Of a DNA stretch of 64,000 nt, positions 8,347 to 48,838 are shown piece by piece. A program made the translations under genes and the position numbers. Numbering within the stretch: position 1 is the stretch's first letter; each line of letters opens with the position of its first letter. The notes below the pieces were generated by a model. The model was not told where the DNA came from. It searched no databases and was given only the letters and a program-made list of their open reading frames with translations. Source of the stretch: Methylobacter sp. Lineage in GTDB: Bacteria > Pseudomonadota > Gammaproteobacteria > Methylococcales > Methylomonadaceae. The stretch covers positions 1 through 64,000 of the forward strand of contig JAUXTH010000146.1 of NCBI GenBank assembly GCA_030679035.1, read 5' to 3'.

Positions 8347-8799
8347 ATGCGATGTCCGTTTTGTGGGGCACAAGATACGCGGGTTCTTGATTCCAGGTTG
8401 GCAAATGAAGGCGACCAGGTTCGCCGTCGGCGTGAATGTAACGCTTGTAAAGAACGATTTACCACGCATGAGGTGGCTGAGTTGGCGCTGCCGCGTATTG
8501 TTAAACGCGACGGGATAAGCGAGCCTTTCGAGGAAAATAAGCTGCGTGCAGGTATGCTCAGGGCGCTGGAAAAGCGGCCGGTAAGCAGTGACGATATTGA
8601 AGCCGCGATAAATCGGATAAAAAAGGATTTGCGGGCTTTGGGTGAGCGGGAAATACCGGCGAAGGAGTTAGGCGAAAAAGTCATGAAAGAGTTAAGCACC
8701 TTGGATCATGTGGCTTTTGTTCGGTTTGCCTCGGTTTACCGTAGTTTTCAGGATGTCAGCGAATTCACCGACATGATTGAACATTTACAAAAGAAATAA
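8347..8799 (+). CDS. nrdR: Transcriptional repressor NrdR
   Basis: The 150-residue regulator represses ribonucleotide reductase genes according to ATP/dATP levels. It begins MRCPFC and has a zinc ribbon (CPFC and CNAC) in the first 35 residues, then an ATP-cone domain (from PRIVKRDG near residue 49 to about 139). Length is exactly that of the family. Its stop overlaps the ribD start by one base (TAATG), the usual nrdR-ribD linkage in proteobacteria. Confidence 0.97.
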
Positions 8800-9884: not shown

Positions 9885-9897
9885 GAGCGGGGCATCC

Positions 9898-10554
9898 ATG
9901 TTTACAGGCATTATCTTGGCAGTGGGCAAAATATCGGCAATCGAGCAGAAAGCCAGCGATTGCCGCTTGACCGTAGCGACCGGAAAATTACCGCTGCACG
10001 ATGTCGCGCTGGGCGACAGCATCGCCGTCAACGGCGTGTGCCTGACCGCCGTGGAGTTGGGGGCGAATTATTTTTGCGCCGATGTGTCCAATGAAACCTT
10101 ATCCAGGACTATTTTAAATATCGCGACAGTCGGCACGCCGGTCAACCTGGAGCTGGCCTTAACGCCGTCAACCCGCTTGGGCGGGCATATCGTCAGCGGT
10201 CATGTCGATGGTATCGGTGCGGTAACGGAAAAGCAGGCGGACGGACGTTCGTTCCGCTTTAAATTTAAGGCACCCGATAACTTGGCTAAATATATTGCCG
10301 AAAAAGGCTCTATCTGCATCAACGGCATCAGCTTGACTGTCAATGAAGTCGATGGCGCTGTGTTCAGTGTTAACATCGTGCCGCACACGCTCAAGGAAAC
10401 CACGTTGGGCGATGCGGTGGTTGGAACCAAGGTCAACCTGGAAGTGGACTTGCTGGCGCGTTATATAGAACGGTTAATCAAGGGTGAGGCGGCGGCTAAA
10501 AGTTGCGGCGGCGTCACTGAAGAATTATTGCAAAAAAGCGGTTTTTTTGGCTAA
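9898..10554 (+). CDS. ribE: Riboflavin synthase alpha subunit
   Basis: This enzyme dismutates two 6,7-dimethyl-8-ribityllumazines into riboflavin. It starts with the signature MFTGII and consists of two similar barrels (about 1-90 and 95-190), each with a GHxVxGHVD-like or [14 protein letters not shown]-type ligand segment. It is 218 residues long, with a short extra tail after residue 200. AGGAG lies ahead of the ATG. It is the third gene of the nrdR-ribD-ribE-ribBA run. In E. coli the gene is called ribC or ribE. Confidence 0.97.
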
Positions 10555-10620
10555 CAACCGTTGGGGCCGGGCTTGTCCCCGCCCTTTTATCCGAATAATT
10601 GTAAAAAGGGTAACAATTAA

Positions 10621-10646
10621 GGGCAACCACAAGGGATTGCCCCTAC
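10621..10646. repeat. 26-bp hairpin repeat, copy 2
   Basis: Identical over 26 bases to the element at 1066-1091. It lies 14 bases before the ribBA start codon, after a GC-rich hairpin at about 10560-10583. No RFN-type FMN riboswitch is seen here. Confidence 0.8.
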
Positions 10647-10660
10647 AATCCAAAGGCAAA

Positions 10661-11764
10661 ATGAATACCATCGAAGAAATTATAGAAGATTTACGCTTAG
10701 GCAAAATGGTTATCATCATGGATGACGAAGACCGCGAGAATGAAGGCGATCTGGTCATGGCGGCAGCTTTTGCGCGACCTGAAGATGTTAATTTTATGGC
10801 GCGTTACGGTCGCGGCCTGATTTGTTTGACCTTGACAGCCGAGCGCTGCCAGCAATTGCGCTTGCCGTTGATGGTCAATGAAAACAAAACCGCCCATTCG
10901 ACCAATTTTACCGTATCGATTGAGGCGGCAACCGGCGTAACCACCGGCATTTCGGCCGCCGACCGGGCGCGAACCATTCAGTGCGCAGTAATGGCGGATG
11001 CCAAGGCCGACGATCTGGTGCAGCCGGGGCACATCTTCCCGTTAATGGCGCAATCCGGCGGGGTATTAAACCGTGCCGGGCATACCGAAGCGGGCTGCGA
11101 TTTAGCAAGGCTGGCAGGCGTGGAACCCGCGGCGGTTATCGTTGAGATCCTCAATGAAGACGGTTCAATGGCAAGACGGCCAGATTTGGAGGTGTTTGCC
11201 GAGCAGCACGATCTTAAAATCGGCACGATCGCCGATTTAATTCATTACCGTATCCAGCACGAAAATACCCTGGAACGCATCAGCGAGTGCGCTTACCCGA
11301 CCGAATTCGGCGATTTCAGACTTTACGCTTACCAGGACAGAAACGACAACAACCTGCATCTGGCGCTGGTGATGGGACAGGTTTCCGGCGACGAACCGGT
11401 TCTGGTCAGGGTTCATGCGCGGAATCTGCTGGATGATGTATTTGCCTCCAAGCGTAGCGATTGCAGCATTTCATTACGTACCGCGATGCAAAAAATCGCC
11501 GAGGAAGGGCGCGGCGTATTGGTGGTTATCCGGCAAAGCGAGGACAATAAATCGCTGGCGGAATTGATTCATCATTATCAGTTGGAAGATAACGGCATCA
11601 TTAATCCAGTCCAGGCTGCCGGAGCCGCAGATTGGCGCACCACCGGAACAGGAGCCAGAATTTTGGCCGATCTGGGTGTGCGCAAACTGAAGGTTTTAGG
11701 TCCCCAGAAAAAGTATGTTGCGTTATCCGGGTTTGATTTGGAAGTCGCCGAGCATGTGGGGTGA
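10661..11764 (+). CDS. ribBA: 3,4-dihydroxy-2-butanone 4-phosphate synthase with degenerate GTP cyclohydrolase II domain
   Basis: Residues 1-200 are a DHBP synthase (RibB), which makes the four-carbon unit of riboflavin from ribulose 5-phosphate: [16 protein letters not shown] acidic loop near residue 27 and [14 protein letters not shown] near 145. Residues from about 205 resemble GTP cyclohydrolase II, but the zinc site C-x10-C-x-C is broken: the first two cysteine positions read N and S (RNLLDD and RSDC) and only the last cysteine remains. The second domain is therefore probably not catalytic, as known for other proteobacterial RibBA-like proteins. The frame is open from 10484, but that overlaps ribE; the ATG at 10661 starts the family's MNTIEEI. 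A separate GTP cyclohydrolase II is expected elsewhere. Confidence 0.93.
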
Positions 11765-33350: not shown

Positions 33351-36300
33351 TCAAAACTCATATTCCCCCAACAACGCCTCAAACTCGTCGATCGGCACGG
33401 GTTTGCTGAACAGAAAGCCCTGATATGCCATACAGCCGTGATGCTCCAGAAACGACAGTTGCGCTTCGGTCTCTACCCCTTCGGCGATGACGTTCAGATG
33501 AAAATTGTGTGCCATATTGATGATGGTTTGCACTATTATGGCGTCATTGGGATCGGTTGCAATATCGCGCACGAAGCTCTGATCGATCTTGAGTTGATCG
33601 AGCGGCAGTTGCTTCAAATAGGATAGCGATGAATAACCCGTGCCAAAATCGTCCATCGACAATTTAATGCCGAGTGCTTTCAGGGCGCCCATCTTTGCCA
33701 CAATATCGGCGACATCGGTTAACATCATGCTCTCGGTCAGTTCCAGCTTCAGGCGCGCCGGATTAACTTGATGAGTACGAATCACTGAGGCAACATTTTC
33801 AACAAAGTCGCGCTCTTTGAATTGCAGCGCGCTGACGTTGACGGCCAGCTCCAAGTCCCGTGTTTGTTCACGTATACTCCACAGCACAAGCTGCCGGCAG
33901 GCTGTTTCCATTACCCAATGCCCGATATCGAGAATCAGCGAACTTTCCTCGGCAACAGGAATGAATTGCGCAGGCGATACCATGCCGCGATTGGGGTGTA
34001 TCCAGCGCACCAATGCTTCAGCACCCAGTGGCTGCTGATCGCTGTCTACCTGAATCTGGTAGAACAAACGCAATTGCCCATCGGACACGGCACAGCGCAA
34101 ATCCGCCTCCAGCGCGACACGCGTTTCCACGGCCTGCTGCATGGCCGAGTCGAAGAAACGCACCGCGTTGCGCCCTGCATCTTTCGCCTGATACATTGCC
34201 ATGTCGGCATGTTTAAGCAAGGTATCTACCGACTCTTCATTGCCGCGATACAAGCTGACACCAATACTCGGTGAGCCGCGATACTCATGATCCTTGAGAT
34301 GATAAGGCGTCACCAGACTTGCGCGTATCTTCTCGGCAATCAGCGTCACTTTTTGCGCCGCCTCTTCAGCTTGATCATCAACATCTTCAATCAGTACCAC
34401 GAACTCATCGCCACCCAGACGGGCAACCGTATCCGCCCTGCGTACACAAAACTGGATGCGCTGCGCTACATCGATCAGCAACAAGTCGCCGTAATCATGT
34501 CCAAGCGTGTCGTTGAGCGTTTTGAATTTGTCCATATCAAGGAACAATATCGCGCCGTAATTTTGACTGCGTGCTGATGCGGTCAGCGCGAGGTTAATTC
34601 GATCCAGCAATAAACGTCGATTCGGCAGCTTGGTCAACTCGTCATAGAACGCCAGATTGAGGATTTTCTGCTCGGCTTCTTTACGATTAGTGATGTCGCT
34701 GAAAATAGCGACATACTCGGTCGTTTTGCCGGTATTGTCCTTGACTGCCGTAATGGTCATCCACTTCGGATAAATCTTCCCGTTCTTGCGCCTGTCCCAC
34801 ATCTCACCGGCCCATGTGCCGGTATCCTGCAACTGTTGCCACATCGCCGTATAAAAGGCTTTGTCATGATGGCTGGAGCTCAAGATGCGCGGATTTTTAC
34901 CCAATACCTCTGCCGAGCTATAACCGGTGATGTCCTGAAACGCCTGATTGACGCGGATGATATTCGAGTTGGCATCGGTAATCAGGATGGCATCATGCGT
35001 CTCAAAGGTAGCCGCTGCGATACGCAATGCATCGTTCCTTAGTTTTTGTTCGGTGATGTCTTGCGTCATACCGGTCGAGCTCAGCGGCTTGCCCGAAACG
35101 TCAAACTTGCTGTTCCAGTGCTCGCGCACCCATTTGACTCGGCCATCCGCAAGCCGCAACCGATATACGATGTCGTAGGGCCGGCAATCTTCTAACGACT
35201 GTGTATAGGCCTGATTTACTTTGTCGCGGTCATCAGGATGAATCACACCCATAAAATTCTCATAGGATGGCGAGAACCGTGTACGATCAAGCTCAAATAT
35301 CCGGTAAATCTCATCCGACCAGTGCAACTCGCCGTTTACCAAATTCAGCTCCCAGCTGCCCAATTGTCCCAGTCGCTGCGCTTCGTTGAGTAAATCCTGA
35401 TTGTGCTGCAACGTCAGTTGGGTAAGTTTGTGCGCGGTGATGTCGGTGCGTATCGAAACGTATTGAAACGGTTTACTATCACCGCCCATGTTAGGAACGA
35501 TAGTGGTTGACACCCAATACAGACTGCCATCCTTGGCACGATTGCAACAATCTCCGTGCCATACCTTCCTATTAGCAATAGTTCGATACATGTCGCTAAA
35601 AAATTCTCTCGGATGTGTATCGGAAGTGAGTATGCGGTGATTCTGCCCGAGCAGCTCATCGCGTGAATACTGGCTGATGGCGCAGAATTTCTCGTTGACG
35701 TAAGTAATCGTGCCGTGCACATCGGTAATCGACACAATCGAGTGCCGATCCAGCGCATATTTTTGATACTCCAACTCCCTTAATGTCTGCCTATACGATT
35801 GTTCGAGTTTCGCCAAGGCCTGCGCGTTCTGCCGCGCCATGCGCTGATCAGTCAAGGCGGCAAGGATACCGCCACCCAACGCAAAACGGAGCATCGGCGT
35901 CAGTTTGACGCGCTCGCCCCGATACATCATCAGCAACGCGCCCCATGAAGCGGTGACGGCACAAACCACGGACAAGATAAAAATCAGCGGGGCATAGCTG
36001 ATCGGCGGGGACATACTGAGTGCTGCCATGCCGGTATAGTGCATGATACTGATGCAGATGGCCATTAGCACGCCACTCACAATAATGCGAACAATGCCGA
36101 TGTCCGGTTTGCGCAGCACGTAAAAACCGAGCATAGCTGCGGCAATCGTGAGCAAAGCAGAGAGCAGGGTTAATGGCAGGTCGTAGCCGAGGGGAATGGG
36201 CAAATGAAAGGCCGACATGCCGATGAAGTGCATGGACCAGATTGCCAAGCCCAGTGTCATGCCAGCGGCAACCATCCATATCCACGCCGAACGACCGCTG

Positions 36301-36353
36301 CTCTCTGGCATACGCTGTGCGGTCTTAATGAGATTTTTCTGTGAGTCATCCAT
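33351..36353 (-). CDS. MHYT-PAS-GGDEF-EAL membrane c-di-GMP turnover protein
   Basis: A 1000-residue protein. Residues 22-150 are an MHYT membrane sensor with motifs WSMHFIGM and IMHYTGM; this family is thought to bind copper and sense O2, CO or NO. The first helix of a complete MHYT domain is missing: the protein begins with a short hydrophilic stretch followed at once by GRSAWIWM. Three PAS domains follow, then GGDEF (R-x-x-D site RRAD, RLGGDEF) and EAL (GAEALVRW, NVSA, ELTES, MDDFGTG, LKID, EGVE), all intact. The start overlaps the preceding HEAGH gene by 8 bases; a stop lies four codons upstream. It is the last gene of the chemotaxis run and a paralogue of the 29.9-kb gene. Confidence 0.92.
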   Translation of the reverse strand: MDDSQKNLIKTAQRMPESSGRSAWIWMVAAGMTLGLAIWSMHFIGMSAFHLPIPLGYDLPLTLLSALLTIAAAMLGFYVLRKPDIGIVRIIVSGVLMAICISIMHYTGMAALSMSPPISYAPLIFILSVVCAVTASWGALLMMYRGERVKLTPMLRFALGGGILAALTDQRMARQNAQALAKLEQSYRQTLRELEYQKYALDRHSIVSITDVHGTITYVNEKFCAISQYSRDELLGQNHRILTSDTHPREFFSDMYRTIANRKVWHGDCCNRAKDGSLYWVSTTIVPNMGGDSKPFQYVSIRTDITAHKLTQLTLQHNQDLLNEAQRLGQLGSWELNLVNGELHWSDEIYRIFELDRTRFSPSYENFMGVIHPDDRDKVNQAYTQSLEDCRPYDIVYRLRLADGRVKWVREHWNSKFDVSGKPLSSTGMTQDITEQKLRNDALRIAAATFETHDAILITDANSNIIRVNQAFQDITGYSSAEVLGKNPRILSSSHHDKAFYTAMWQQLQDTGTWAGEMWDRRKNGKIYPKWMTITAVKDNTGKTTEYVAIFSDITNRKEAEQKILNLAFYDELTKLPNRRLLLDRINLALTASARSQNYGAILFLDMDKFKTLNDTLGHDYGDLLLIDVAQRIQFCVRRADTVARLGGDEFVVLIEDVDDQAEEAAQKVTLIAEKIRASLVTPYHLKDHEYRGSPSIGVSLYRGNEESVDTLLKHADMAMYQAKDAGRNAVRFFDSAMQQAVETRVALEADLRCAVSDGQLRLFYQIQVDSDQQPLGAEALVRWIHPNRGMVSPAQFIPVAEESSLILDIGHWVMETACRQLVLWSIREQTRDLELAVNVSALQFKERDFVENVASVIRTHQVNPARLKLELTESMMLTDVADIVAKMGALKALGIKLSMDDFGTGYSSLSYLKQLPLDQLKIDQSFVRDIATDPNDAIIVQTIINMAHNFHLNVIAEGVETEAQLSFLEHHGCMAYQGFLFSKPVPIDEFEALLGEYEF

Positions 36354-37089
36354 GATGATGCCTTACGTTGCTTCTCCGATTTTGAAAATGAGCTACCGCC
36401 TGATCAAGCGTTGAAGCAATCTCTTCACAGTAAATAATATTTTCATTACTGCCAAGAATATAATCAGCCAGCTGGGTGATTGCCGCCCAGTTTGCATCAT
36501 TATTTATAAAGTCAAATGCTACGGTAAATAACTCAGCCAATTTTTTATCTTTTTGTTGTTTATCGGCAGAGAAACTTTGTAAATATTCATTAGCCAAGGC
36601 AATATCGTAACTGCCTCCATAATTTTCTAATGCTTCCAGATTGACTAACTGATGATTGAAGAGCTCGTCATCGGTGTGAGCGACATGCTTAGCTTCAGCC
36701 AACGGCCCGATAAGTAGATTAATAATATCTGCCTCACAAGCCAGCATATAATCATTCACCAATCTCACTATGGCGGCATTGTGTTCTGTTAATCCCACGC
36801 CCAGACTATCAATAGGAGCAGGTAACCATTCAATTAACCGTCCTCCTTTCACTCGTGCAATACAATCGCCATGGATTGTTTGATAAGCCATACCTTCTGT
36901 TCCTGTCATGTCACCCATATCCTTAAAAATAATTTTAAAAAAAACCGGTGGCAGCTGTCTGGCTTTGTTATTTAAATGAATACCCGCTGCATGTCCTGCT
37001 TCATGAAAAGCAACACGTTGTTTATAGTCTATTAATTTACCATTATTGAAAACCTCAATTATCTTGTTTCGTTTCATACTAAGCACCAT
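36346..37089 (-). CDS. Stand-alone HEAGH peptidase-like protein (M41/FtsH-like core)
   Basis: A 247-residue protein with no AAA domain. The segment VAFHEAGHAAGIHL near residue 27 matches the HExxH zinc motif of FtsH (M41) peptidases, and LLIGPLAEAKH near 140 is placed like the helix carrying the third ligand in that family. The function is unknown; a proteolytic role on a chemotaxis or c-di-GMP component would fit its place between cheB and the MHYT gene but is only inference. It starts 60 bases after the cheB stop. An alternative start is the second ATG at 37077. Neither start has a strong Shine-Dalgarno sequence. Base composition is more AT-rich than in the che genes around it. Confidence 0.7.
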   Translation of the reverse strand: MVLSMKRNKIIEVFNNGKLIDYKQRVAFHEAGHAAGIHLNNKARQLPPVFFKIIFKDMGDMTGTEGMAYQTIHGDCIARVKGGRLIEWLPAPIDSLGVGLTEHNAAIVRLVNDYMLACEADIINLLIGPLAEAKHVAHTDDELFNHQLVNLEALENYGGSYDIALANEYLQSFSADKQQKDKKLAELFTVAFDFINNDANWAAITQLADYILGSNENIIYCEEIASTLDQAVAHFQNRRSNVRHHHG

Positions 37090-37149: not shown

Positions 37150-38223
37150 CTATCTCCCTCCACCATACGCCACAATCTCATAAGCGATTTTATCTAACGG
37201 TAGTTCTTTGTTTACAGCGCCCAGCTTTACTGCCTCTTTCGGCATGCCATACACCACACAGCTGTCTTCATCCTGCCCCACGGTACGCGCCCCCATGTCG
37301 TACATTTCTTTTAGGCCTTTGGCGCCGTCATCGCCCATGCCGGTCATGATGATACCCAGTGCGTTTTTGCCCGCGCACTTGGCTGCCGAGCGGAACAATA
37401 CATCGACCGACGGACGATGACGACTGACGGGCGGCCCGTCCACAATCTCGACATGGTATTGAGCCCCGCTACGCTTCAGCAGCATGTGCCGCCCTCCTGG
37501 TGCAATCAGCGCGCGTCCAGGAATCACTCGGTCGCCATTGACGGCTTCGCGCACTTCAATCCGACATAAACTGTTCAGACGAGCAGCGAAAGCGCCGGTA
37601 AATTTTTCCGGCATATGTTGCACGATAACGATGCCGGGACAGACACGCGGCAAGGCGGTCAATACGACTTCCAGCGCCTGCGTACCGCCGGTGGAGGTAC
37701 CGATGGCGACGACCCGGTCGGTGGTTTCGGACATGGCGTGGAAGGAGGCAGGGAGGATGGCGTCTGCCGTTAATTTGGCCGGCACCGGCACAGCGGCTGC
37801 CGATGTGACCAGTCGGCGCAGGTTGGCGCGGGCGGCGGCTTTGACTGCGGCAACCAGATTTTCCGAGTCATCCTGCAAAAATTGCTTGAGCCCTACTTTA
37901 GGCTTGGTGACGATACTCACCGCTCCCGCCGCCAGCGCCTGCATGGTGGTTTCAGCGCCTTTTTCGGTGAGCGTTGAACAAATGACCACCGGCGTGGGTC
38001 GTTCGGCCATCAGTTTTTTCAAGAACGTGATACCGTCCATACGCGGCATTTCCACGTCCAGCACGATCACATCAGGCCATTGCGTCTGCATCCGCGTCAT
38101 GGCGAATATCGGGTCGGAAGCGGCGCCGATCACGTTAATACCCGGATCTTGCGACAGGTTTTCGGTCAATACCTGTCGCACTACGGCGGAATCATCCACT
38201 ATCAGTACTTTAATCTGGGTCAC
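37150..38223 (-). CDS. cheB: Chemotaxis methylesterase/glutamine deamidase CheB
   Basis: CheB removes methyl groups from chemoreceptors after phosphorylation by CheA. The N-terminal receiver (1-125) has the DD pair in [10 protein letters not shown], the phospho-acceptor in [12 protein letters not shown] and a lysine in VTKPK. The C-terminal esterase (about 165-357) has its catalytic triad in GTSTGGTQ (Ser), IVQHMPEKF (His) and MTGMGDDG (Asp). The 357-residue length is normal. It overlaps cheD by the ATGA. Confidence 0.97.
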
Positions 38224-38756
38224 CCCAGTCTCCTGTTTATGGTTTCAAGCTCGGCTATGGACAGCGCTTTAGTGTGCTTAACCCAAACCTCTCCGCTCCA
38301 CACTTCAAAAATCACGTTGCGATAACCGATGTCGCCCAAGTGCTCGGCCACGCAGGTAAAGTCATGTTGTTTTGCAAGTCGCCGCGCGGCTTGCCCATTC
38401 AGGATGCCGATCCGGGACATCCTGTTTTTAGGCGTTTCAGGAAACATATTGCCGCCGCCAAATAACTTGACCTGATATTCCTTATGGGAAGCGCCGACAG
38501 CATCGATTTTTTTCAGCAGCAGGGCCATTGCCTCATCGGCATAACGCCCGTCCGGCACTGACCGGCCGACTGTCCTGTGTGCGCTGCCACGCTCCGGCAG
38601 CATGTAGTGACACATTCCTCCTACCAGCAGTTGAGGGTGCCAAAAGGTCATCGAGACACATGAACCCAATACGGTGCGGATGCGGGAGTCCCGGCCAGCG
38701 AAGCAATGATCGCCGGGCTGAAGAAATATCTCTGAAGGATGCAAAGGCGTTATCAT
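38220..38756 (-). CDS. cheD: Chemoreceptor glutamine deamidase CheD
   Basis: CheD deamidates glutamines of chemoreceptors and in some bacteria stimulates CheC. The 178-residue protein shows the catalytic cysteine in GSCVSMTFW and the histidine in CHYMLP, and the glycine-rich KLFGGGNMF segment. It lies between cheR (1 base) and cheB (4-base overlap), the usual cheR-cheD-cheB order of proteobacterial clusters. No cheC is present in the window. Confidence 0.96.
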
Positions 38757-38757
38757 T

Positions 38758-39594
38758 TCAGGGCTTCAGGTAAACGGCCGGCTGCACCGGTCGTACGTCT
38801 TCGGTTATGCCGTTCAGCGTCTCGGAATGACCGACCAAAAAATGTCCGCCGGGGCGTAGCAGCGACAGCAGGCGCGATACAACCTGGCGTTTGGTATCCT
38901 GATCGAAATAGATCATCACGTTGCGCAGGAATATCACATCGAACTCTCCCAGTTTCGGCGGCGCTTCGGTGAGGTTATGTTGCATGAACTGGACGCGTTC
39001 GCGGAGTTTGCGCTCGATCAGTAATGTCCCCTCCTGGGTGCCGGTGCCTTTAAGACAGCAGTTTGACAAATAGCAGCTGGGGATTTCCAACATGCGCTCT
39101 ATAGGGTAAAGGCCGGTACGGGCCATCTCCAGCACCCGCATGCTAAGGTCGGAGGCAACGATTTCCCATGGCGCTTTGCCCAATACCTCATCCAGCAGCA
39201 TGGCAATACTGTAGGGTTCCTCTCCGCTGGAACAGGCGGCACTCCAGATGCGCAAGGGTTTTCCAGGTTTTCGCGTCGGTAAAATGCGCTGGCGCAGAAA
39301 ATCGAAATGTTTGGGTTCACGGAAGAAGTGCGTTTCGTTGGTGGTCAGCAAGTCCACCGCCATTTGCAGTTCTGTTTTGCCGTTGACCGCGGTAATCATG
39401 TGAAAATACTCGCCATAGCTCGCCAACCCGTAGTGTGTAAGCCGCTTCGCCAGGCGACTGGACACCAGCGCCTTCTTGGAGGGTGATAGGCTGATGCCGG
39501 CGATACGGTAGATCAGGTCGCGAAACTGTGCGAATTCCTTCTCTTGCAGCACCACGGCCTCAAAATTGGGTTTGTGAATTGCGTATGCAGTCAT
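38758..39594 (-). CDS. cheR: Chemotaxis protein methyltransferase CheR
   Basis: CheR methylates receptor glutamates using S-adenosylmethionine. The 278-residue protein has the N-terminal helical domain (ISLSPSKKALVSSRL), the FFREP segment, the SAM loop IWSAACSSGEEPYS near residue 118 and FDVIFLRNVMIYFD near 227. All are standard. No TPR or pentapeptide-binding extension is seen beyond the usual fold. A 332-base repeat-filled gap separates it from the diiron protein gene upstream. Confidence 0.97.
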   Translation of the reverse strand: MTAYAIHKPNFEAVVLQEKEFAQFRDLIYRIAGISLSPSKKALVSSRLAKRLTHYGLASYGEYFHMITAVNGKTELQMAVDLLTTNETHFFREPKHFDFLRQRILPTRKPGKPLRIWSAACSSGEEPYSIAMLLDEVLGKAPWEIVASDLSMRVLEMARTGLYPIERMLEIPSCYLSNCCLKGTGTQEGTLLIERKLRERVQFMQHNLTEAPPKLGEFDVIFLRNVMIYFDQDTKRQVVSRLLSLLRPGGHFLVGHSETLNGITEDVRPVQPAVYLKP

Positions 39595-39728: not shown

Positions 39729-39797
39729 CCTGGTGGAGTACAAGGCTGGCCTTGTACTGATGCAATCGAATGCAAGGCCAGCCTTGCACTCCAGCCA

Positions 39798-39926: not shown

Positions 39927-40667
39927 TCATATCAGCCCGGACCCCACTTGTAGCTCTGAAAACCAATTGATGAAACGCTCTACGTCAGCGCCCTGATAAA
40001 TCGCGCCGTGTTGCGGGCAGAGCATGTCGATTTTCATGGCGGCCACGCGCTCACACCATAGGCGCTGGGCCTCGGGCGACCCCATCCAGCGGCGGTGAAA
40101 ACCCTCTGCATAGCGAATGTGGCGATCAAAATCTTTAACGAATAAACCATTCAACTCTTCCGGCAGCATCGCCGCGCCAATATCACCCGAGAAAAACAAC
40201 CGTGCGGTCTCGTCGTACAAATTGAAATTGCCGGAAGAATGCAGATAATGCGCGGGCACGGCTTGCAGCTTCAGCTTGCCGACAGTAATCACCGAGCCTT
40301 CATCGGGAATCCCTATAAGGGTTTCGTCGGTGCCGCCAAAATGCGGAACAAAGGTCGTCCACAAGCGGCTGAGATGACATTTGAGTTCAGGATTAAAATC
40401 CAGCCACAGAGACAGTGACGAAATGATGTCCGGATCCTGGTGAGAGGCAAACAGCACGCCTATTTTCGCAGGATCGAACGTTTCACAGATAGCTGCGAAT
40501 ACCGTTGAAAAAATTTCCGAACCGCCCGGATCGGTCAATAACGCCGTAGTGCCGTCAGTAATCAGGTATTCGTTGGTGTCGATCAAATAATTAGGGCGCT
40601 CCGGATCGCGCGCGACGGCAATCCATTGGTGCTGGCCGGATTGATAAATAATCGTTGCTTTTTTCAT
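39927..40667 (-). CDS. Oxygen-binding diiron protein (ODP-like MBL fold)
   Basis: A 246-residue metallo-beta-lactamase-fold protein without flavodoxin domain. The metal site is visible as HQDPD (near residue 75) in place of the lactamase HxHxDH, then PAHYLHSSGN, FFSGDIG and CPQHG, the pattern of FprA-like diiron proteins. In Treponema denticola a related protein (ODP) senses O2/Fe(II) for chemotaxis. Here it overlaps by 4 bases the gene for a receptor-tip protein and sits inside the che cluster, so a similar role is inferred. Its last eight codons (LQVGSGLI) and stop lie in a dispersed repeat. A plain hydrolase role is less likely because of the HQDPD site. Confidence 0.8.
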   Translation of the reverse strand: MKKATIIYQSGQHQWIAVARDPERPNYLIDTNEYLITDGTTALLTDPGGSEIFSTVFAAICETFDPAKIGVLFASHQDPDIISSLSLWLDFNPELKCHLSRLWTTFVPHFGGTDETLIGIPDEGSVITVGKLKLQAVPAHYLHSSGNFNLYDETARLFFSGDIGAAMLPEELNGLFVKDFDRHIRYAEGFHRRWMGSPEAQRLWCERVAAMKIDMLCPQHGAIYQGADVERFINWFSELQVGSGLI

Positions 40668-41248
40668 AAGCCAGTCTCTGTCAGTCGTGATTCAAGTTTC
40701 CTAACACGCACGGCAATATTGTCGACAACGTTTTCCACACCCTGCGCAATCTGGCGTAATACCGGCGTCATGACGCCACCGTGAGCCGCCTCGATGGCGG
40801 CCGAGTGAGCAATCACCACGCCGGTGGCGCATTGCTTTCCGGTGCGTCTCATCGTAATCTGCAACTCGCGCACCAGGCTCGCGATAAGTTGCTCCATTTC
40901 ATCTACATCGGCCAGGCTGTGCATACATGCCGGGGCGATACGGGTTTGCGCCAACTCGCCATAAGAACCGGCCTGGGTAAGCAAAACCAGGTTACGCGTC
41001 CGGTGACGCTTACCTGCGGTTGCCACTACCTGCCGGTAAATCAGCCCCGATAGCCCTTGCATGACAGTCGTCATCTTCTCGCTAAACATCCTCAGTTCAC
41101 GCGCTACCACGCTGAACCCCACGGCATTAATGCCCGCTTGTCTGGCGACCAGCATCGCATTGGTCGCAGTCAGGCTGATGTTTTCTGCTGCGTATACAAT
41201 GCTTTTAATCTCCTCATTGATTTCCGCGATAGCTTTTAATTCGTTCAT
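40664..41248 (-). CDS. Chemoreceptor signalling-tip-like protein
   Basis: A soluble 194-residue protein. Residues 10-60 (IKSIVYAAENISLTATNAML, then ARQAGINAVGFSVVARELR) align with the hairpin tip of chemoreceptors ([17 protein letters not shown]...GFAVVA.EVR), the part that contacts CheA and CheW. It has no membrane segment, HAMP, PAS or full coiled coil. The C-terminal half (helices with LITSLVRELQ-like repeats) is not recognised. The frame is open to 41362, but AAGGTG before the ATG at 41248 supports that start. Overlap with the diiron protein gene suggests the two form a receptor unit. Confidence 0.7.
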   Translation of the reverse strand: MNELKAIAEINEEIKSIVYAAENISLTATNAMLVARQAGINAVGFSVVARELRMFSEKMTTVMQGLSGLIYRQVVATAGKRHRTRNLVLLTQAGSYGELAQTRIAPACMHSLADVDEMEQLIASLVRELQITMRRTGKQCATGVVIAHSAAIEAAHGGVMTPVLRQIAQGVENVVDNIAVRVRKLESRLTETGL

Positions 41249-41330
41249 AAGCACCTTATATTTAAATAATTCATAAGCGTTACTGTAAAAAAACATCGTA
41301 TCAGCTTTAAATTTCATGGCGTTTGGAGAC

Positions 41331-41402
41331 GCGACTTCAGTCGCGGTGATGGCTGTTATCATCCCCGTCTAGGTATGAATTCTCATGCGCGACTGAAGTC
41401 GC
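41331..41402. repeat. Inverted pair of GCGACTGAAGTCGC elements
   Basis: GCGACTTCAGTCGC at 41331-41344 and GCGACTGAAGTCGC at 41389-41402 face each other in the 295-base gap between cheW and the receptor-tip gene. The right copy continues into a tail like that at 45-76. No gene is seen in the gap (41249-41543). Confidence 0.8.
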
Positions 41403-41543
41403 GGCTCCGGTTATCGTTTTCCCTGTCTTTTAAAATAGATGCTAAAAAACATCCACTTAACGCCACCAGGCAATTCATAATGACTGCATTCCCACGTCCA
41501 AGCGTGAAACGCAGACTCAGCCCTTACAACGTCATACGTCATA

Positions 41544-42101
41544 TCACTCCGCGAGTGCCAACTCGCTTGCCGAAGTAGAGCCCACCGTAGCCAGCTCAGC
41601 CATGTTATCCATCGACAGCACATGCTGAATATTCAGGATGATGACAAACTTGCCATTGATCTTGCCCATACCGGCAATAAAGTCGGCGCGGATGTGGGTA
41701 CCGAACGTGGGAGCCGGTTCGATCTCGCAGGCCGGAATCTCCAGCACTGCGTTCACCGCATCCACCATCACCCCTACACTCTGGGTTTCCTCTCCTATCG
41801 CCACTTCGATAATGATGATGCAGTTGCGTCGTCCTATTGAAGTAGGCGGCTTGCCGAAACGTGCGCTCAGATCAATCACCGGCACCACTGCCCCCCTCAG
41901 GTTAATAACGCCGAGGATGAAATCCGGCATCCGCGGCACTTCGGTCAGTTGGCCGTATTGAATGATCTCCTTGATGCGAAGTATGCCTATGGCATAGGTT
42001 TCACCGCTCAACATAAAGGTGAGATACTGCTGTTGCTCCTCCAGCGCCTGGCCGCCGACCGTGGCCGACAGCGTCTGTACCGTTTGTGTGATTGCATTCA
42101 T
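41544..42101 (-). CDS. cheW: Chemotaxis coupling protein CheW
   Basis: CheW links chemoreceptors to the CheA kinase. The 185-residue SH3-like protein has the family segments LTFMLSGETYAIGI near residue 27, IKEIIQYGQLTEVPRMPDFILGVINLRG and VVPVIDLSARFG, and GVMVDAVNAVLEI. It carries extra residues at both ends relative to the minimal fold. It lies 9 bases after the upstream mcp gene in the same orientation. Confidence 0.96.
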   Translation of the reverse strand: MNAITQTVQTLSATVGGQALEEQQQYLTFMLSGETYAIGILRIKEIIQYGQLTEVPRMPDFILGVINLRGAVVPVIDLSARFGKPPTSIGRRNCIIIIEVAIGEETQSVGVMVDAVNAVLEIPACEIEPAPTFGTHIRADFIAGMGKINGKFVIILNIQHVLSMDNMAELATVGSTSASELALAE

Positions 42102-42110
42102 GCCCGCCTC

Positions 42111-44267
42111 CTAAAACTTCACGAATTCGGCTTTGTTAGGCGCCTGTTTTGCCGCCACCGTTTTTCTAACCGCAGGCTTGAAAGGCTTGATATTTGGAGT
42201 CTTAGGTGCCGCCTCTGCGATATCACCCACTGTAAAGAATGCCATAAGCTCCTGTAGCTGCGCAGCCTGTCCGCTCATCTCTTCCGAGGTGGCGGCCAAC
42301 TGTTCCGATGAACTGGCATTCTGCTGAGTGATCTGGTTGAGCTGATCCATAGCGGTATTGATTTGGCCTACACCTGCCGATTGCTCTTCAGAGGCCGCCG
42401 ATATTTCCTGTACCAGGTCGGAGGTTTTCTTGATTGAGGGCACGATGGTATTTAGCAGCTTGCCGGCGCTTTCAGCCATCTCGACACTGCTGGAGGCGAG
42501 TTCGCCGATTTCCTGTGCGGCGACTTGGCTACGTTCGGCCAGTTTACGCACTTCGGCGGCGACTACGGCAAACCCCCTGCCGTGGTCGCCGGCTCGGGCG
42601 GCTTCAATCGCAGCGTTCAAGGCCAGCAAATTGGTTTGGTAAGCAATATCGTCGATAATGCCTATTTTGCCGGCGATACTCTTCATCGCGGTCACCGTCT
42701 GTTTCACCGCTTCACCGCCTTGCACCGCATCGCTACTGGCCTGGGTAGCCATACCGTCGGTGACTTTGGCATTTTCAGCGTTCTGATTGATGGAAGCCGA
42801 CATCTGTTCGACGGAAGCGCTGGTTTCTTCCACGCTGGCCGCTTGCTCATTGGTCGCCTGGCTCATGCTCTGAGCAGTGGCAGAAACCTCCTCACTGGCC
42901 GATGCGATATTGGAAGCGGCACCATTAACTTCGCTAATGACTTGTGAAAGTTTGGCGATGGTATTGTTGATCGTATCTTTGAAATCTTTGAGCTGCCCCT
43001 GGTAATTGCCATTGACGGCTTGGGTAAGGTCACCCTTCTCCATCTCGGTGAGAACTGCCACCGCTTCGTTCACAGGGAGGACGATGCCGTCCAGCGTGTC
43101 GTTCATGCCTTCGACAATTTTACAGTATTCGCCTTGGTGTTTGCCGGCATCGGCGCGGGTTTCCAGTCGACCTTCAACGGCGGCCTGAGCCAGCATGCCC
43201 GCGTCAGCTACCAGAGCATTGACGGCATCAATGGCCGTATTGAGGTTGTTCTTGATGACGTTGAAGTCGCCGTTATAAGTGTCCATGATTTTCGGCGGTA
43301 TATCGCCCTTGGATATTCGGTCGACATAATCTGCGGCAACGTTGAGCGGTTGAATGATGGCATCCAACAACTGGTTAACCGAATTACCAAACTCTTGGGT
43401 CGCACCACTAAATTCTGTTGTATTGATCCGCTCATTAAGTTGTCCGGCAATAGCGGCGTTGGTTACCCGTTTAATTTCTGCGATAGCTTTTACTTCTGCG
43501 GTGCAGTCGACCCATTCCACCGCATAGCCATTAATATTGCCCTGTTTATCCAGCACAGGAAAAACGGTTAAATTAAACGACATGTCCAAAACCTGAATGG
43601 TTGCTTTGTGCGGCATTTGGGTTGGATCAGCAAAAATGCGTTTTTGCATCTCGGGATTACGGTGAAAGGTATCGATACAGACGCCTATTAGCCGTTCAGG
43701 ATCGAAACCGGGAAAGGCTTTTTGCAATTCCGTTTTATATCGGTTTAATAGATTAATCAGAGAAGGATTGACTGAGGTAATCCGGCGTTCGAAATCGCAG
43801 GTCATCACCGGCATTACCATGTGCTGTAGCACCGATTTAGATCTATCGGCTTCCGCTTCCAGTTTCAATTGATCCGTTGCGCACTGGAATTCGAATACCC
43901 CGCCTTTAAAAATGCCTTGCTCATCGGCGAGCGGCAACAGCGAAACATGAAATTTTTCCTCTCCCAACGACATTATATTGGACCAGCTTTTATGCTGTTT
44001 ACGCAGTTCCGAAAAGACATGGGCAGGGATGGCGGTAAAGTTGTCTAGATTTGTACCAATAAGATGCTGACTATCGAAATCCGGCATCATTGTTTCAAAA
44101 ACCTGCCGGTGTTGCCTGAACAGTTCGGCTGCCGATTGGCTGACTCTGGAAACCACCAAATCAGCATTAAAAAACATAACGCCATTACCGGTTTTTTCTA
44201 AAAACAGCTGAAATTGGGTAATCTCTTCTTGCTGGCTACGATTGGAAAAGAAATCAAATACTCTCAT
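42111..44267 (-). CDS. Cytoplasmic PAS-HAMP methyl-accepting chemotaxis protein
   Basis: A 718-residue chemoreceptor with no membrane segment. Two PAS-like domains (about 20-130 and 145-265) precede two or three HAMP-like repeats (about 290-440, with ISKGDIPP and MEKGDLTQA) and the signalling domain (about 450-690). The tip shows [24 protein letters not shown]. Adaptation sites are plausible in the flanking helices rich in Q/E-A pairs. There is no C-terminal CheR-binding pentapeptide. A cytosolic redox, energy or ligand signal is likely. It is followed 9 bases later by cheW. Confidence 0.94.
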
Positions 44268-44432: not shown

Positions 44433-46622
44433 CTATTTTGCTGCCATAGCGACTGTCATCTCGCCCATCCCCCTTTCGTGTTCTATCTGCCCCATCAGCC
44501 CCGGTACATCAACGATCAACGCAACCTCGCCGCTACCCAGAATGGTAAATCCGCCGATGCTCTTTTCACCTTTGAACAGCTTGCCCAGCGGTTTGATCAC
44601 GGTTTGGAATTCGCCCATCAGTTTGTCCACGACCAAGCCGGCCTTGTGCTCGCCATAGCGCACCACAACAACATTCTCGCGTTGCACCCTTTCGCCTTCC
44701 ATGTCAAAGTGGTCACGCAACCGTCGATACGGCAACACTTCACCGCGCAGATTCAGATATTGCCCATCTCCCTCGTCGCTTGCCCAAGCCCTTAATTCGA
44801 TACACTCAACTACCATGTCCAACGGGATAACGTAGGCGGCCTTGCCGACACCCACCATGAAGCCATCGATAATGGCAAGGGTGAGCGGCAGGCGGATGCG
44901 AATGGTGCTGCCTTGGCCTTCTACGCTGTCCAGATCTATGGTGCCGCGTAAGGCCTGGATGTTACGTCGCACCACGTCCATGCCGACGCCGCGGCCGGAC
45001 AGGTTGCTGACCGCATCGGCGGTGGAGAATCCGGCTTCGAAGATCAGGTTGTAGATTTCTTTGTCGGTCAGGTTTGCACTCTCGGCGACCAGTCCGCGTT
45101 CGATGGCTTTGCCCAGGATTTTTTCTTTGTTCAGGCCGCCGCCGTCGTCGCTAACTTCGATAACGATGCTGCCGGCGTCATGATAGGCGTTGAGCCTGAG
45201 GGTGCCTTTGGCAGGTTTGCCGCGGGCAATACGCAGCTCGGCAGGCTCAATGCCGTGATCCATGGAGTTGCGCACCAGATGGGTGAGCGGGTCGCCGATT
45301 TTTTCTACGACAGTTTTGTCGAGTTCGGTCTCCGCGCCGCTGATAACCAGGTCGATGTCTTTGCCCAGTTCTTTGCTGACATCACGCACTACGCGTTGGA
45401 AGCGGTTGAAGGTGCCGCCGATTTGCACCATGCGCAACGCCAGTGCGGAATCGCGGACTTCTTCCACCAGTCGCGACAGAGTGGCGGTGGATTCCATAAG
45501 ATCCGCCATTCCAGCGCGCCGGGCGATCAGGTTGGTGCCTGCTCCGGCAATGATCAGCTCACCCACCAGATTGATCAGTTCGTCGAGTTTTTCAGCATCG
45601 ACGCGGATCAGGTTGGCTTCGCTTTTTTTGTGGTCGTTAATCTGTTTTTGTTTTTCCAGTGCGGCTTCTACCACCGGCGGACTGACCAGTTGTTGTTCGA
45701 CCAGGACTTCGCCGATCGGCCGTTGCGGGGCATCGCCGTGTTCCGATTGAAAGCGCAGGATGTTTTCCAGTTCTTCCGGCGTTAAGGTGCCGCACTTGAC
45801 CAGGATTTCGCCCAGACGCATTTCTTGTTCCGGCAATTCCAGAATCAGGCGCTGGTATTCGGAGGCTTTACTGCGCGGCGGCAGTATGCGGATGAAACAG
45901 TCGCTGCGTACAAAATTGAAGACACTCTCAATGGCGAGCTTGTCGGCATCGCTGCTAAAGCTGATTTCAAAGCCCAAATAGCACGATTCAGGATCCATTT
46001 CTTCGGTTACTGGAATGGCGTCGATGAGGGTCACCAGTTGCACGATGCTTCCCAACGAGGACAGACAGCGCACAAAAGAAAAGGGATCCATGCCGTTCCT
46101 GAATACGTCCACTCCAAAGCGCAAGGACAAATGCCAAAGGTCGGTTCCGACCTCGTCGCTCTGTTCACGCTCCAGTTTGGACTGATGGACTACGGGCATT
46201 TCGCCCGAATGATCAGGTTGATCCGCCACTGCCTCGCCCAGATAAGCTTCCAACTGCTTTATTAAACTTTTACCGTGACTGTCGATTTCGCTGGCGGGGT
46301 GACTGTCTTCGGCAACATGATTGATCAATACGCTCAAATGATCGTGCGCTTCAATAAATAATGCTGCCAATACGGAACTCATGGCTATGTCACCGCTACG
46401 TACCCGATCCAGAACGCTTTCCGCCGCATGGGTAAATACCACGATAGGGTCGATGCCGAACATGCCGGCCGAGCCTTTAATGGTATGCGCCGCCCGAAAG
46501 ATGGCGTTGATAATTTCAGGATCATCTGCGGCCTGCTCTACGATTAACAGGGCTTCTTCCATTTGTTCGAGCAGTTCCCTGCATTCGACAACAAAGGTTT
46601 GTAGATATTCGTCTGGAATCAT
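44433..46622 (-). CDS. cheA: Chemotaxis histidine kinase CheA with tandem MshEN-like motifs
   Basis: A 729-residue kinase. The Hpt domain has the phosphorylated histidine at H46 (FRAAHTIKGS). Residues 156-250 resemble a response-regulator-binding P2 domain. Residues 269-292 match the 24-residue c-di-GMP-binding MshEN motif at every key position (RLGxxL, G at 10, L at 17, L at 21, Q at 24); 302-325 is a second, weaker copy. P3 dimerisation starts near 335, the kinase domain has the N box (HLVRNSMDHG), G1 (VSDDGGG) and G2 (GRGVGMDVV), and a CheW-like P5 ends the protein. It follows the STAS gene with a 4-base overlap. c-di-GMP binding is an inference. Confidence 0.95.
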   Translation of the reverse strand: MIPDEYLQTFVVECRELLEQMEEALLIVEQAADDPEIINAIFRAAHTIKGSAGMFGIDPIVVFTHAAESVLDRVRSGDIAMSSVLAALFIEAHDHLSVLINHVAEDSHPASEIDSHGKSLIKQLEAYLGEAVADQPDHSGEMPVVHQSKLEREQSDEVGTDLWHLSLRFGVDVFRNGMDPFSFVRCLSSLGSIVQLVTLIDAIPVTEEMDPESCYLGFEISFSSDADKLAIESVFNFVRSDCFIRILPPRSKASEYQRLILELPEQEMRLGEILVKCGTLTPEELENILRFQSEHGDAPQRPIGEVLVEQQLVSPPVVEAALEKQKQINDHKKSEANLIRVDAEKLDELINLVGELIIAGAGTNLIARRAGMADLMESTATLSRLVEEVRDSALALRMVQIGGTFNRFQRVVRDVSKELGKDIDLVISGAETELDKTVVEKIGDPLTHLVRNSMDHGIEPAELRIARGKPAKGTLRLNAYHDAGSIVIEVSDDGGGLNKEKILGKAIERGLVAESANLTDKEIYNLIFEAGFSTADAVSNLSGRGVGMDVVRRNIQALRGTIDLDSVEGQGSTIRIRLPLTLAIIDGFMVGVGKAAYVIPLDMVVECIELRAWASDEGDGQYLNLRGEVLPYRRLRDHFDMEGERVQRENVVVVRYGEHKAGLVVDKLMGEFQTVIKPLGKLFKGEKSIGGFTILGSGEVALIVDVPGLMGQIEHERGMGEMTVAMAAK

Positions 46623-46960
46623 GTCGATTTACCTTCATGTGTGGGCTTGTAGACAAACAGCAACGGATCGCCGAAAAAACCGGCCAAGCCGGACAAATCC
46701 AGAAGATCCAACACTACAGGACTGTGACCGGTAAAGCGCAAGACTTTGCCTAAATCCGCCGCCTCCTGTTTTATCATCACCAGCAGTTGTAATCCGGCGG
46801 CATCGAATTCACCGACGCCGGACAGATCCAGCTCCAGTTCTTCAGTCGTCGATAGACCCGTCAGCAACTTATCTTTCAATTCCATAGCGGTATAAATTGT
46901 CAATTCACCTTCTATGACGAGGCGACCGCTTTGCTGATTTTTATTTTTCACGTTCGCCAT
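46619..46960 (-). CDS. STAS-domain protein in the chemotaxis operon
   Basis: A 113-residue single STAS (anti-sigma factor antagonist) domain. The phosphorylation-loop region reads GVGEFDAAGLQLLV, where family members usually have D-S-(S/A)-G; here the serine position is alanine, so phospho-control of the SpoIIAA type is doubtful. It lies 14 bases after cheY and overlaps cheA by 4 bases, so it is co-expressed with the kinase. STAS genes at this position occur in several proteobacterial che clusters, with no firmly known role. Confidence 0.88.
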   Translation of the reverse strand: MANVKNKNQQSGRLVIEGELTIYTAMELKDKLLTGLSTTEELELDLSGVGEFDAAGLQLLVMIKQEAADLGKVLRFTGHSPVVLDLLDLSGLAGFFGDPLLFVYKPTHEGKST

Positions 46961-46974
46961 AAGTTGCTCCCGTT

Positions 46975-47343
46975 TTATGCCTGGATAAGCTGCGAAACCG
47001 CAGCCAGTAGTTGCGGCGGCTGAAAAGGTTTCACTATCCAGGCTTTTACACCGGCCGCTTTGCCTTCATTCATTTTCGCTTCCTGGGTTTCGGTGGTCAG
47101 CATGATGATCGGGGTGAATTTGTAGGCCGGTAGTTGTTTGGCCGTCTTAACAAACGTGAGACCGTCCATATTAGGCATGTTCACGTCGCTGATGATCAGG
47201 TGTATTTTGCAACCGTCCAGTTTGGTCAAGGCGTCCTGACCATCACAAGCCACAATCACTTCGTATCCCTCGCGCGTCAGGGTGCTCTTCATCACCTGCC
47301 TAACCGAGGCGGAATCTTCTACAAACAGTATTGTTTTTGCCAT
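46975..47343 (-). CDS. cheY: Chemotaxis response regulator CheY
   Basis: A 122-residue single-domain receiver. It shows the acidic pair in LFVEDSASVRQ, the phospho-acceptor in LIISDVNMPNMDG, a conserved Thr in LTTETQ and the lysine in VKPFQPP. The frame is open to 47418, but GAGGAA seven bases before the ATG at 47343 and the family start (MAKTILFVEDS) choose that start. It lies 10 bases downstream of the mcp gene and 14 before the STAS gene. Confidence 0.95.
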   Translation of the reverse strand: MAKTILFVEDSASVRQVMKSTLTREGYEVIVACDGQDALTKLDGCKIHLIISDVNMPNMDGLTFVKTAKQLPAYKFTPIIMLTTETQEAKMNEGKAAGVKAWIVKPFQPPQLLAAVSQLIQA

Positions 47344-47353
47344 GTCTAATTCC

Positions 47354-48838
47354 TCAAAAAAATGTAATGTTGGTTTGGTTGGTCTTGATCTCGGCCTTCG
47401 TACCGTCGTGCGCCGCAAGCTGCTCCTCCATGGTGTAAGTCTTGGTCAGTTCTTCCAGCCATAGCTCCACATTCACCGAGCGAGACAATCCTTCGCTGGT
47501 TTCTTCATTGTTAAGCTCATTCAAATGCTGTTCGAGTTTGTTCAAATCGTCACCGACCAGCGTTAAAATCTGGCTAACCCGATCCTGAAACTGCAAGGTA
47601 ACTAAAACATCGGATATTCCATGATTGATGGCATTATTTTCAGCACGCAACAGCGCCTCGGAGTCGGACATTCCGGCAGCCGCTTGGGTGAAGTGTCTCA
47701 ATACCGAAGCAATAATCCGCTCCGCATTACCCCGCGTCTCTTCGTCTTGCCGGGTGAACTTCCGGGAAATTATTAATGTCTCTTCAATCGATTCGCTGAC
47801 GGATTCAATCGTTTCGGTAATCTTTTTACCGACATCACCCGACGAGCGTGCTAATTTTCGCACCTCATCCGCAACCACTGAAAAGCCGTGTCCCGCATCT
47901 CCGGCTCGTGCCGCCTGAATGGCAGCGTTCAATGCCAGCAGGTTAGTCTGACTGGCAATACTGCTGACTTCCCATGCCATTTTGCTTAGTTTCTCGGTAA
48001 AGCAGGACAAGTCCTCAATTGAGCGCAGCAGTTTTTCCTTATCTTCCAGCGATGCGCCCAGCGCCTTGGTAATGGTGCCCAATTCCAGCTGACTATCCTT
48101 TAACAGTTCAACGATCCCGCCATGTGAGTCGTTATCGCCTTCCACAGTATTTTGAGTCGCTATAACGGCTGCATCGAGACGATGTGACAGGGCGTCGAAA
48201 CGTTCCGCCAATTCAGTAATGGACTCTTCGGTATGCACCCTGGCCATTTCGATTTGAGTCGACCAGATCGGTAATACTTTTTGACATAGTATGTCCAGCC
48301 CATCTATGCCCGACTCTTGTTTTTCATCGCCGGTCGACTGATCATCAAGATATTGCGTCAAGACATCGAAGCGTTGAGCCAAATCAGCAATCTGTGTTTC
48401 GACAGAAAGCCGCTCGATTTCGGCTTGTTGTGTTTTTTTCTGATCCTGTCCACCGAGACGGTTTGATAACACGTCAAAACGTTGCGCTAAATCAGTCATT
48501 AAGGTTTCGATATGTTTCCGCTCTGCCTCAACTTGATTGGCGCAGACTCGCAAAACAGTTTCATTATGCGCATCCTGCAATGCCTTGATTGTTCCCTCGT
48601 GTTTCTGTTGTAAACTTTCAAGCAGGCTCTGCTCGCTAGTTTGCAACGACATTCGATAGCGGTTCCGACTCCAGAAATGCAAGGCGACAGTCATGACGAT
48701 CAAACCAGTCGCCATGGTCAAACCATTCATTGCAAAACGGCTGGACACTGCAAGACCTAGCGCACCAAGTCCGCCGGATGACAATAAGGGAAACGCTTGC
48801 CAATAATCATTTCGATAAAATTTCATCGGTTCTTTCAT
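47354..48838 (-). CDS. Single-helix methyl-accepting chemotaxis protein with repeated LAxRFDxL segments
   Basis: A 494-residue receptor with one hydrophobic segment near residues 15-45, almost no periplasmic domain, and a cytoplasmic stalk in which [26 protein letters not shown] and [13 protein letters not shown] recur (about residues 100-240). The signalling tip is [20 protein letters not shown], followed by a region with LQFQDRVSQ, a motif common at the end of this receptor subclass. The frame is open to 48871, but GGAGG lies inside that extension, 10 bases before the ATG at 48838, which is chosen. It is the first gene of the che run. Confidence 0.9.

Follow-up and report, generated by a model that had tools for sequence, protein, structure and literature searches.

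The 64,000-nucleotide stretch of DNA analyzed here (the window) carries, within a chemotaxis operon, adjoining genes for an ODP-type diiron protein and for a small soluble protein that is predicted to consist of two receptor hairpins in tandem, folded as a single helical bundle like a receptor dimer in one chain. The pair is probably an auxiliary O2/Fe(II) sensing unit of the chemosensory array, in which the ODP would switch a single-chain pseudo-dimer docked with CheA and CheW.

On the minus strand, genes for a CheY-like protein, a STAS protein, CheA, a receptor, CheW, the tip protein, the ODP, CheR, CheD, and CheB follow one another in this order and make up a complete che set, CheY having been read by eye:

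46975–47418, minus strand: CheY-like response regulator (read by eye; the true start is probably downstream of the listed TTG)
46619–46960, minus strand: STAS-domain protein (PF13466, E 6.9e-19)
44433–46622, minus strand: CheA with Hpt, dimerisation, ATPase, and CheW-like domains (Pfam domain matches)
42111–44267, minus strand: soluble-looking receptor of 718 aa with PAS, HAMP_2, and MCPsignal domains and a canonical tip (domain matches; highest 19-residue hydropathy mean 1.31)
41544–42101, minus strand: CheW (PF01584, E 9e-40)
40664–41248, minus strand: soluble receptor protein of 194 aa with predicted tandem tips (MCPsignal, E 1.5e-4, below cut-off; hhalign; AlphaFold2 model)
40967–41248, minus strand: N hairpin of the tip protein, residues 1–94 (hhalign, 99.0% to receptor tips; column counts)
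40676–40957, minus strand: C hairpin of the tip protein, residues 98–191 (hhalign, 96.4% to receptor tips; helix break at residues 155–157 of the window model)
40664–40667, minus strand: ATGA overlap of the tip stop and the ODP start (sequence)
39927–40667, minus strand: ODP, diiron sensor of the metallo-beta-lactamase fold, 246 aa (PF19583; PDB 6qrq/6qnm)
38758–39594, minus strand: CheR (PF01739, E 4e-57)
38220–38756, minus strand: CheD (PF03975, E 1.6e-24)
37150–38223, minus strand: CheB (PF01339, E 3.7e-66)

The coordinates and strand of the pair, the lengths of its two products, and the four bases shared by its genes had been given correctly in an earlier note on this DNA. The pair sits between cheW and cheR. 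Among 80 loci fetched by ODP alone, which are the best 80 of 571 confirmed relatives and are referred to below as the ODP-anchored loci, the order CheW–tip–ODP–CheR–CheD–CheB also occurs in seven (L036, L037, L040, L043, L053, L069, and L079). The closest named relatives found are Methylobacter MAGs with ODPs 88–90% identical to that of the window, which comes from a Methylobacter-like methanotroph. A GGDEF–EAL gene (33351–36353, read by eye) lies near CheB, and directly after CheB a gene at 36346–37089 encodes a 247-aa protein with a HEAGHAA peptidase-like motif, for which NCBIfam returned no match. Intergenic inverted repeats with 21-nt arms (95%) and a 34-nt direct repeat surround the tip and ODP genes (window positions 41325–41408, 39734–39793, and 39696/39921), and these repeats resemble small mobile or repetitive elements.

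A longer in-frame start is available for the tip gene at 41362 (232 aa). The 194-aa version is favored because the ORFs of L003, L005, and L149 start at the same MNEL and because AAGGTG, read by eye, lies just upstream; the ORF of L004 is longer too. Rough dN/dS values against four congeners are low, at 0.06–0.09 for the ODP and 0.10–0.29 for the tip, so that both genes look maintained.

The product of the downstream gene belongs to the ODP family, matching PF19583 over residues 29–221 with an E value of 1.7e-71 (240.5 bits against a cut-off of 27.2) and the solved ODPs 6qrq (8.4e-65) and 6qnm (1.9e-59). HQDPD stands at residues 76–80, and alignment with 6qrq and the flavoprotein 4dik finds all six diiron ligand positions present (H76, D78, D80, H143, D162, and H220), roles that we assume from flavodiiron proteins. 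The likeness to the Treponema ODP that the earlier note had read from this motif and the MBL fold is thus borne out. The ligand residues are intact in 80 of the 81 ODPs of the ODP scan (best of 571), the remaining one being cut by a contig end; in 30/30 ODPs of a spirochaete set (best 30 loci of 63 matching genomes); in all three ODPs of the window's genome, including the window's own; and in 24 of 27 ODPs of the tip-search set. The other three (L012, L026, and L028), which all come from the window's taxonomic family, have lost ligand residues (D162 to S; H76 to N with H143 to Y) and kept the upstream tip gene; judged from these substitutions, they are possible metal-free pseudo-sensors.

By homology, the ODP most likely provides O2/Fe(II) input to a chemosensory array. 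Its sequence resembles flavodiiron proteins, ligand positions included, which would also suit an enzyme that, like those proteins, mainly scavenges O2 or NO, the tip merely placing the ODP at the array. Such a role is quite improbable: no flavodoxin domain was found in the 246-aa protein, whose Pfam matches are to ODP and Lactamase_B only, and both a partnership of ODP with a receptor and a sensor role have been described for T. denticola in the accessible parts of PMC7666581 and PMC6978683.

The tip protein matches MCPsignal (PF00015) over residues 7–77 at an E value of 1.5e-4 and 22.1 bits, which is below the 34.6 cut-off, but profile comparison upholds the similarity to receptor tips asserted in the earlier note. 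Eighty non-redundant members of the tip family were compared by hhalign with a receptor-tip profile built on five non-redundant MCPs, hhalign E-values referring to a single comparison. The N half (residues 1–93) reached 99.0% probability and the C half (residues 105–191) 96.4%, and the two hairpins matched each other at 89.8%; with reversed profiles the probability was 0.3 to 4.2%, and with parts of the receptor other than the tip it was 0.6 to 8.5%, the match covering one or two columns. A transmembrane segment is not apparent (highest 19-residue Kyte–Doolittle mean 1.35).

AlphaFold2 predicts helices at residues 2–94, 98–154, and 158–191 of the window protein (pLDDT 96.9, pTM 0.87) and at 2–48, 51–102, 109–162, and 166–201 of a Methylomonas relative (pLDDT 95.4, pTM 0.87). 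In the model of the relative, the helix breaks coincide with both tip motifs; in that of the window protein, DSSP shows helix 2–94 continuing unbroken through the first tip. Taken together, hhalign and the predicted models point to the make-up of a single-chain receptor, with two signaling hairpins in one chain and a four-helix bundle. The best full-length Foldseek matches of both models are designed single-chain proteins (TM 0.49–0.61 for the window protein, where they stand in place of receptors, and 0.42–0.51 for the relative). These are maquettes, which are four-helix bundles, and matches of this kind are expected for a bundle folded at the tip. As a structural match to receptors, Foldseek gave weak hits to 9a69 and 2ch7 (E 0.03–0.32), presumably because the library holds single chains and a receptor bundle is made of two.

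The restriction of the Pfam match to residues 7–77 would fit a single hairpin acting as a bare, detached tip that replaces classical receptors, as the earlier note had it. This version is very unlikely, given the second hairpin seen in the profile comparison and the models and the classical MCP encoded in the same operon. What stands of that account is the pairing of an ODP-type sensor gene with one for a separate, soluble signaling part; the detached single tip gives way to two in tandem, the hairpin at residues 98–191 having been missed, and the idea of a unit used instead of a classical receptor finds no support, given the 718-aa PAS–HAMP–MCPsignal protein.

The two hairpins of the predicted pseudo-dimer have diverged in the residues by which receptor tips make contact. 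Equivalences to Tsr, whose residue numbering is used here, follow the hairpin register of the hhalign profile alignment, and counts refer to 80 of 108 tips (80% filter). In the window protein, the N hairpin has N30 at the position of Tsr N381, G39, F45 at F396, E51 at E402, and R53 at R404, with V and Q at the positions of E385 and R388; the C hairpin has E153 at E385, within AAIEAAHGG, with S and H at the positions of N381 and R388. Across the family, E385 is found in 0/79 N hairpins versus 78/80 C hairpins, N381 in 75/78 versus 11/80, R or K at the R388 position in 65/80 versus 9/80, F396 in 74/80 versus 9/80, and E402 in 41/80 versus 17/80, and the V399 position holds V, I, or L in 79/80 N hairpins. 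N381 in the N hairpin and E385 in the C hairpin occur together in 73/78. The canonical contact residues that PF00015 proteins carry in one hairpin are therefore divided over two, whereas spirochaete receptors adjoining an ODP have N and E in a single hairpin in 30/30 (best 30 loci of 63 matching genomes).

In receptor trimers, partner dimers are connected by E385–R388' ionic locks, according to the accessible part of PMC8144572. With tips this divergent, below the Pfam cut-off and with E385 absent from 79/79 N hairpins, normal trimers of dimers are doubtful. The double tip could accordingly be a decoy or an array cap that competes for CheW and CheA or caps array edges, its availability being set by the state of the ODP: E385 and R388 are no longer in the same hairpin, so that normal trimers would be impossible, and in the window protein the R388 position is taken by Q. 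That is an unlikely, if arguable, explanation, as the conservation of N381, F396, and the V399 position in the N hairpin suggests an active contact face, and TDE2496, the T. denticola counterpart, can modulate CheA (PMC7666581, accessible part).

Tentatively, and with fairly low probability, the split may mark a widespread, naturally evolved asymmetric pseudo-dimer. Its N hairpin would retain the GF..V..ELR face together with N381/R388, E385 would be left to the C hairpin, and array or trimer contacts would form between unlike hairpins, from R388 of the N hairpin to E385 of another chain's C hairpin or to a canonical receptor. If so, such contacts would give the dimer fixed inner and outer sides and make it an ODP-controlled entry point for O2 signals.

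The adjacency of the two families seen in the window proved to be conserved. A tandem tip lies directly upstream of the ODP in 79/80 of the ODP-anchored loci (best 80 of 571), which argues that the adjacency is not chance; the stretch of the remaining locus (L104) starts 218 bases before the ODP, at a contig edge. The spacing is −4 in 34/79, the genes overlap in 47/79, and they lie within 50 nt in 76/79 of these best matches, whose hosts, by record title, include Pseudomonadota, Myxococcota, Nitrospirota, and Leptospirales. In 143 gammaproteobacterial genomes, 15/17 tip places adjoin an ODP, one of them partial (G578), and the two without an ODP are broken copies in a second che operon of the window's genome (L146). 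Conversely, 15/37 ODP places in these genomes adjoin a tip and 22/37 do not; no tip was found at E values up to 1 in the ORFs of L148 and 21 other receptor-less loci (L168–L188), some of whose stretches end at contig edges. Pairwise distances of ODPs and tips are correlated (Mantel r 0.805, 0/1000 permutations as high, 77 pairs, with L082, L100, and L104 excluded), which shared descent alone can explain. In an ODP tree made by a quick method from 78 of 161 ODP rows left after a 72% identity filter, with labels assigned by locus set, the ODPs with tandem tips (46 rows, support 99), with single-hairpin receptors (12, 99), and without receptors (20, 87) each fall on one side of a branch.

Variants of the arrangement were also seen. 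One locus of a Lambdaproteobacteria MAG (L082, 3249–4741) has two tandem ODP genes downstream of a single tip gene, and in two congeners (L149, 9005–9622, and L150, 3431–4057) the tip gene is preceded by an additional, diverged one that, as judged by eye, has deletions in the linker and damage in the second hairpin. Eight long ODP ORFs (281–464 aa) were considered as tip–ODP fusions and rejected by eye, their N-terminal extras being upstream starts in the ODP frame that overlap the tip gene.

The window's genome holds further copies. Its second che operon (L146; G000 contig 120, 6000–22628) has two degenerate tip copies and CheB, CheD, and CheR 91%, 82%, and 86% identical to those of the window; no ODP was found in it. 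A second tandem-tip/ODP pair (L147, 14715–16084, G000 contig 1) ends another che cluster with a ParA-like ATPase and a STAS protein. A third ODP (L031/L148) has no receptor and is followed 2 nt downstream by a GGDEF–EAL gene (L148, region 8510–11472, G000 contig 113), which may represent a c-di-GMP output for that ODP. GGDEF–EAL was rejected as a regular ODP partner: of nine neighbor proteins, drawn from 8 of the 21 further receptor-less loci (L168–L188), seven matched unrelated families and two matched none. Since no common neighbor emerged among the receptor-less ODPs scanned, the GGDEF–EAL gene of L148 counts here as an isolated case.

Within about 4 kb on either side of the pair, BLAST with the window's Che proteins found no che gene in 61/80 ODP-anchored loci (best 80 of 571; some contigs are short). 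At those loci the pair would have to act in trans, and gene order alone is insufficient to establish coupling to an array. Together with the GGDEF–EAL gene near CheB in the window, these loci leave room for a pair that has left chemotaxis and serves another output, such as c-di-GMP or a non-flagellar che pathway. That prospect is remote enough to rank as improbable, considering that a complete che set surrounds the window pair and that receptor tips are the elements that contact CheA and CheW.

The favored reading, an auxiliary sensing unit of the array, suggests the following mechanism. The diiron site of the ODP would take up iron and O2 and thereby alter the state of its partner, a single-chain pseudo-dimer with two hairpins in one four-helix bundle and both tips at the same end; binding of the ODP to the tip protein is assumed here by analogy with T. 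denticola. The tip protein would dock with CheA and CheW, probably next to full-length receptors in mixed arrays, and O2 or redox state would in this way bias CheA output. We infer this docking, the mixed arrays, and the resulting behavior. With the 718-aa receptor encoded in the same operon, the pair is more likely an added array input. Weighing against this reading, besides the divergent tips and the loci with no che gene found nearby, are the unbroken first helix of the window model, the best Foldseek matches to designed proteins, the three ODPs that lost ligand residues, and the 22/37 ODP places with no tip. In Tsr, some 80 or more residues separate the methylation helices from the tip, and the bundle of the tip protein extends at most about 57 residues from its tips. 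It is too short for methylation helices, and adaptation would therefore come through other, neighboring receptors.

Pairing of an ODP with a receptor is already known, contrary to the earlier note, in which no such pair was held to have been described. As stated in the accessible part of PMC7666581, the T. denticola ODP (TDE2498) is an O2 sensor genetically coupled to TDE2496, which can modulate CheA although it is without transmembrane and sensing modules. The accessible text of PMC7319448 credits Muok et al. 2019 with finding ODPs that share operons with receptor genes, in one of two orders, and ODPs also occur there with other signaling genes and as fusions to other signaling domains; PMC6978683, in its accessible part, reports that the interaction of an ODP with its cognate receptor is conformation-dependent. 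No printed account of tandem-tip or single-chain ODP receptors turned up in a literature search that left most subscription papers outside its scope, and the accessible parts of PMC13401364, PMC6194562, PMC9665402, and PMC10653840 hold nothing on a tip/ODP pair. As far as these searches reach, what is new is the architecture of the receptor, a minimal pseudo-dimer of two unequal tips in tandem, which in the sampled rows is tied to a single ODP clade. The pair would offer a small, soluble, O2-responsive module for in vitro study of signaling from a stand-alone sensor to a receptor.

Like TDE2496, the window tip protein is soluble, has no membrane or sensing module, and adjoins an ODP. The 30 Treponema-like loci, the best of those in 63 matching genomes among 392, all have the receptor ORF downstream of the ODP (30/30); this ORF is 279–323 aa long and has N381 and E385 in one hairpin. 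Scanned for the tip motif, 29/30 showed a single tip close to the middle and L143 showed none. T. denticola itself is apparently absent from the 392 genomes, as the best match to its ODP is 63% identical. In place of a single hairpin downstream of the ODP, the window pair has its receptor upstream, at about 200 aa in the family, with tandem hairpins between which the contact residues are split. This receptor-first order is probably one of the two ODP–receptor operon groups of PMC7319448, as far as its accessible text indicates.

A second comparison is with single-chain receptors, for which the accessible part of PMC4692393 is the source. Each dimer of a receptor trimer has an inner subunit, turned toward the trimer axis, and an outer one, turned toward CheA/CheW. 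These inner and outer roles cannot be split by conventional mutations, and it was to split them that single-chain receptors were engineered; the single-chain Tsr~Tsr supports chemotaxis. Natural soluble single-chain MCP domains also exist and were likened to single-chain Tar signaling domains, their role being unknown, with no sensor partner mentioned in that part of the paper. They share two signaling hairpins per chain with the window-type tips, which differ in being minimal, diverged, tied to an ODP, and spread over several phyla. A natural family of short soluble proteins whose hairpins have already diverged, E385 being kept by one and N381/R388 mainly by its partner, would reveal which residues each position needs. 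With Tsr~Tsr the window protein shares the covalent receptor dimer, which in the engineered case is aimed at separating the inner and outer subunit roles; Tsr~Tsr consists of two full-length subunits and a linker, whereas the window protein appears to join two unequal minimal hairpins. The joined, unequal double tip thus looks like a natural version of the receptor dimers engineered in the laboratory as single chains.
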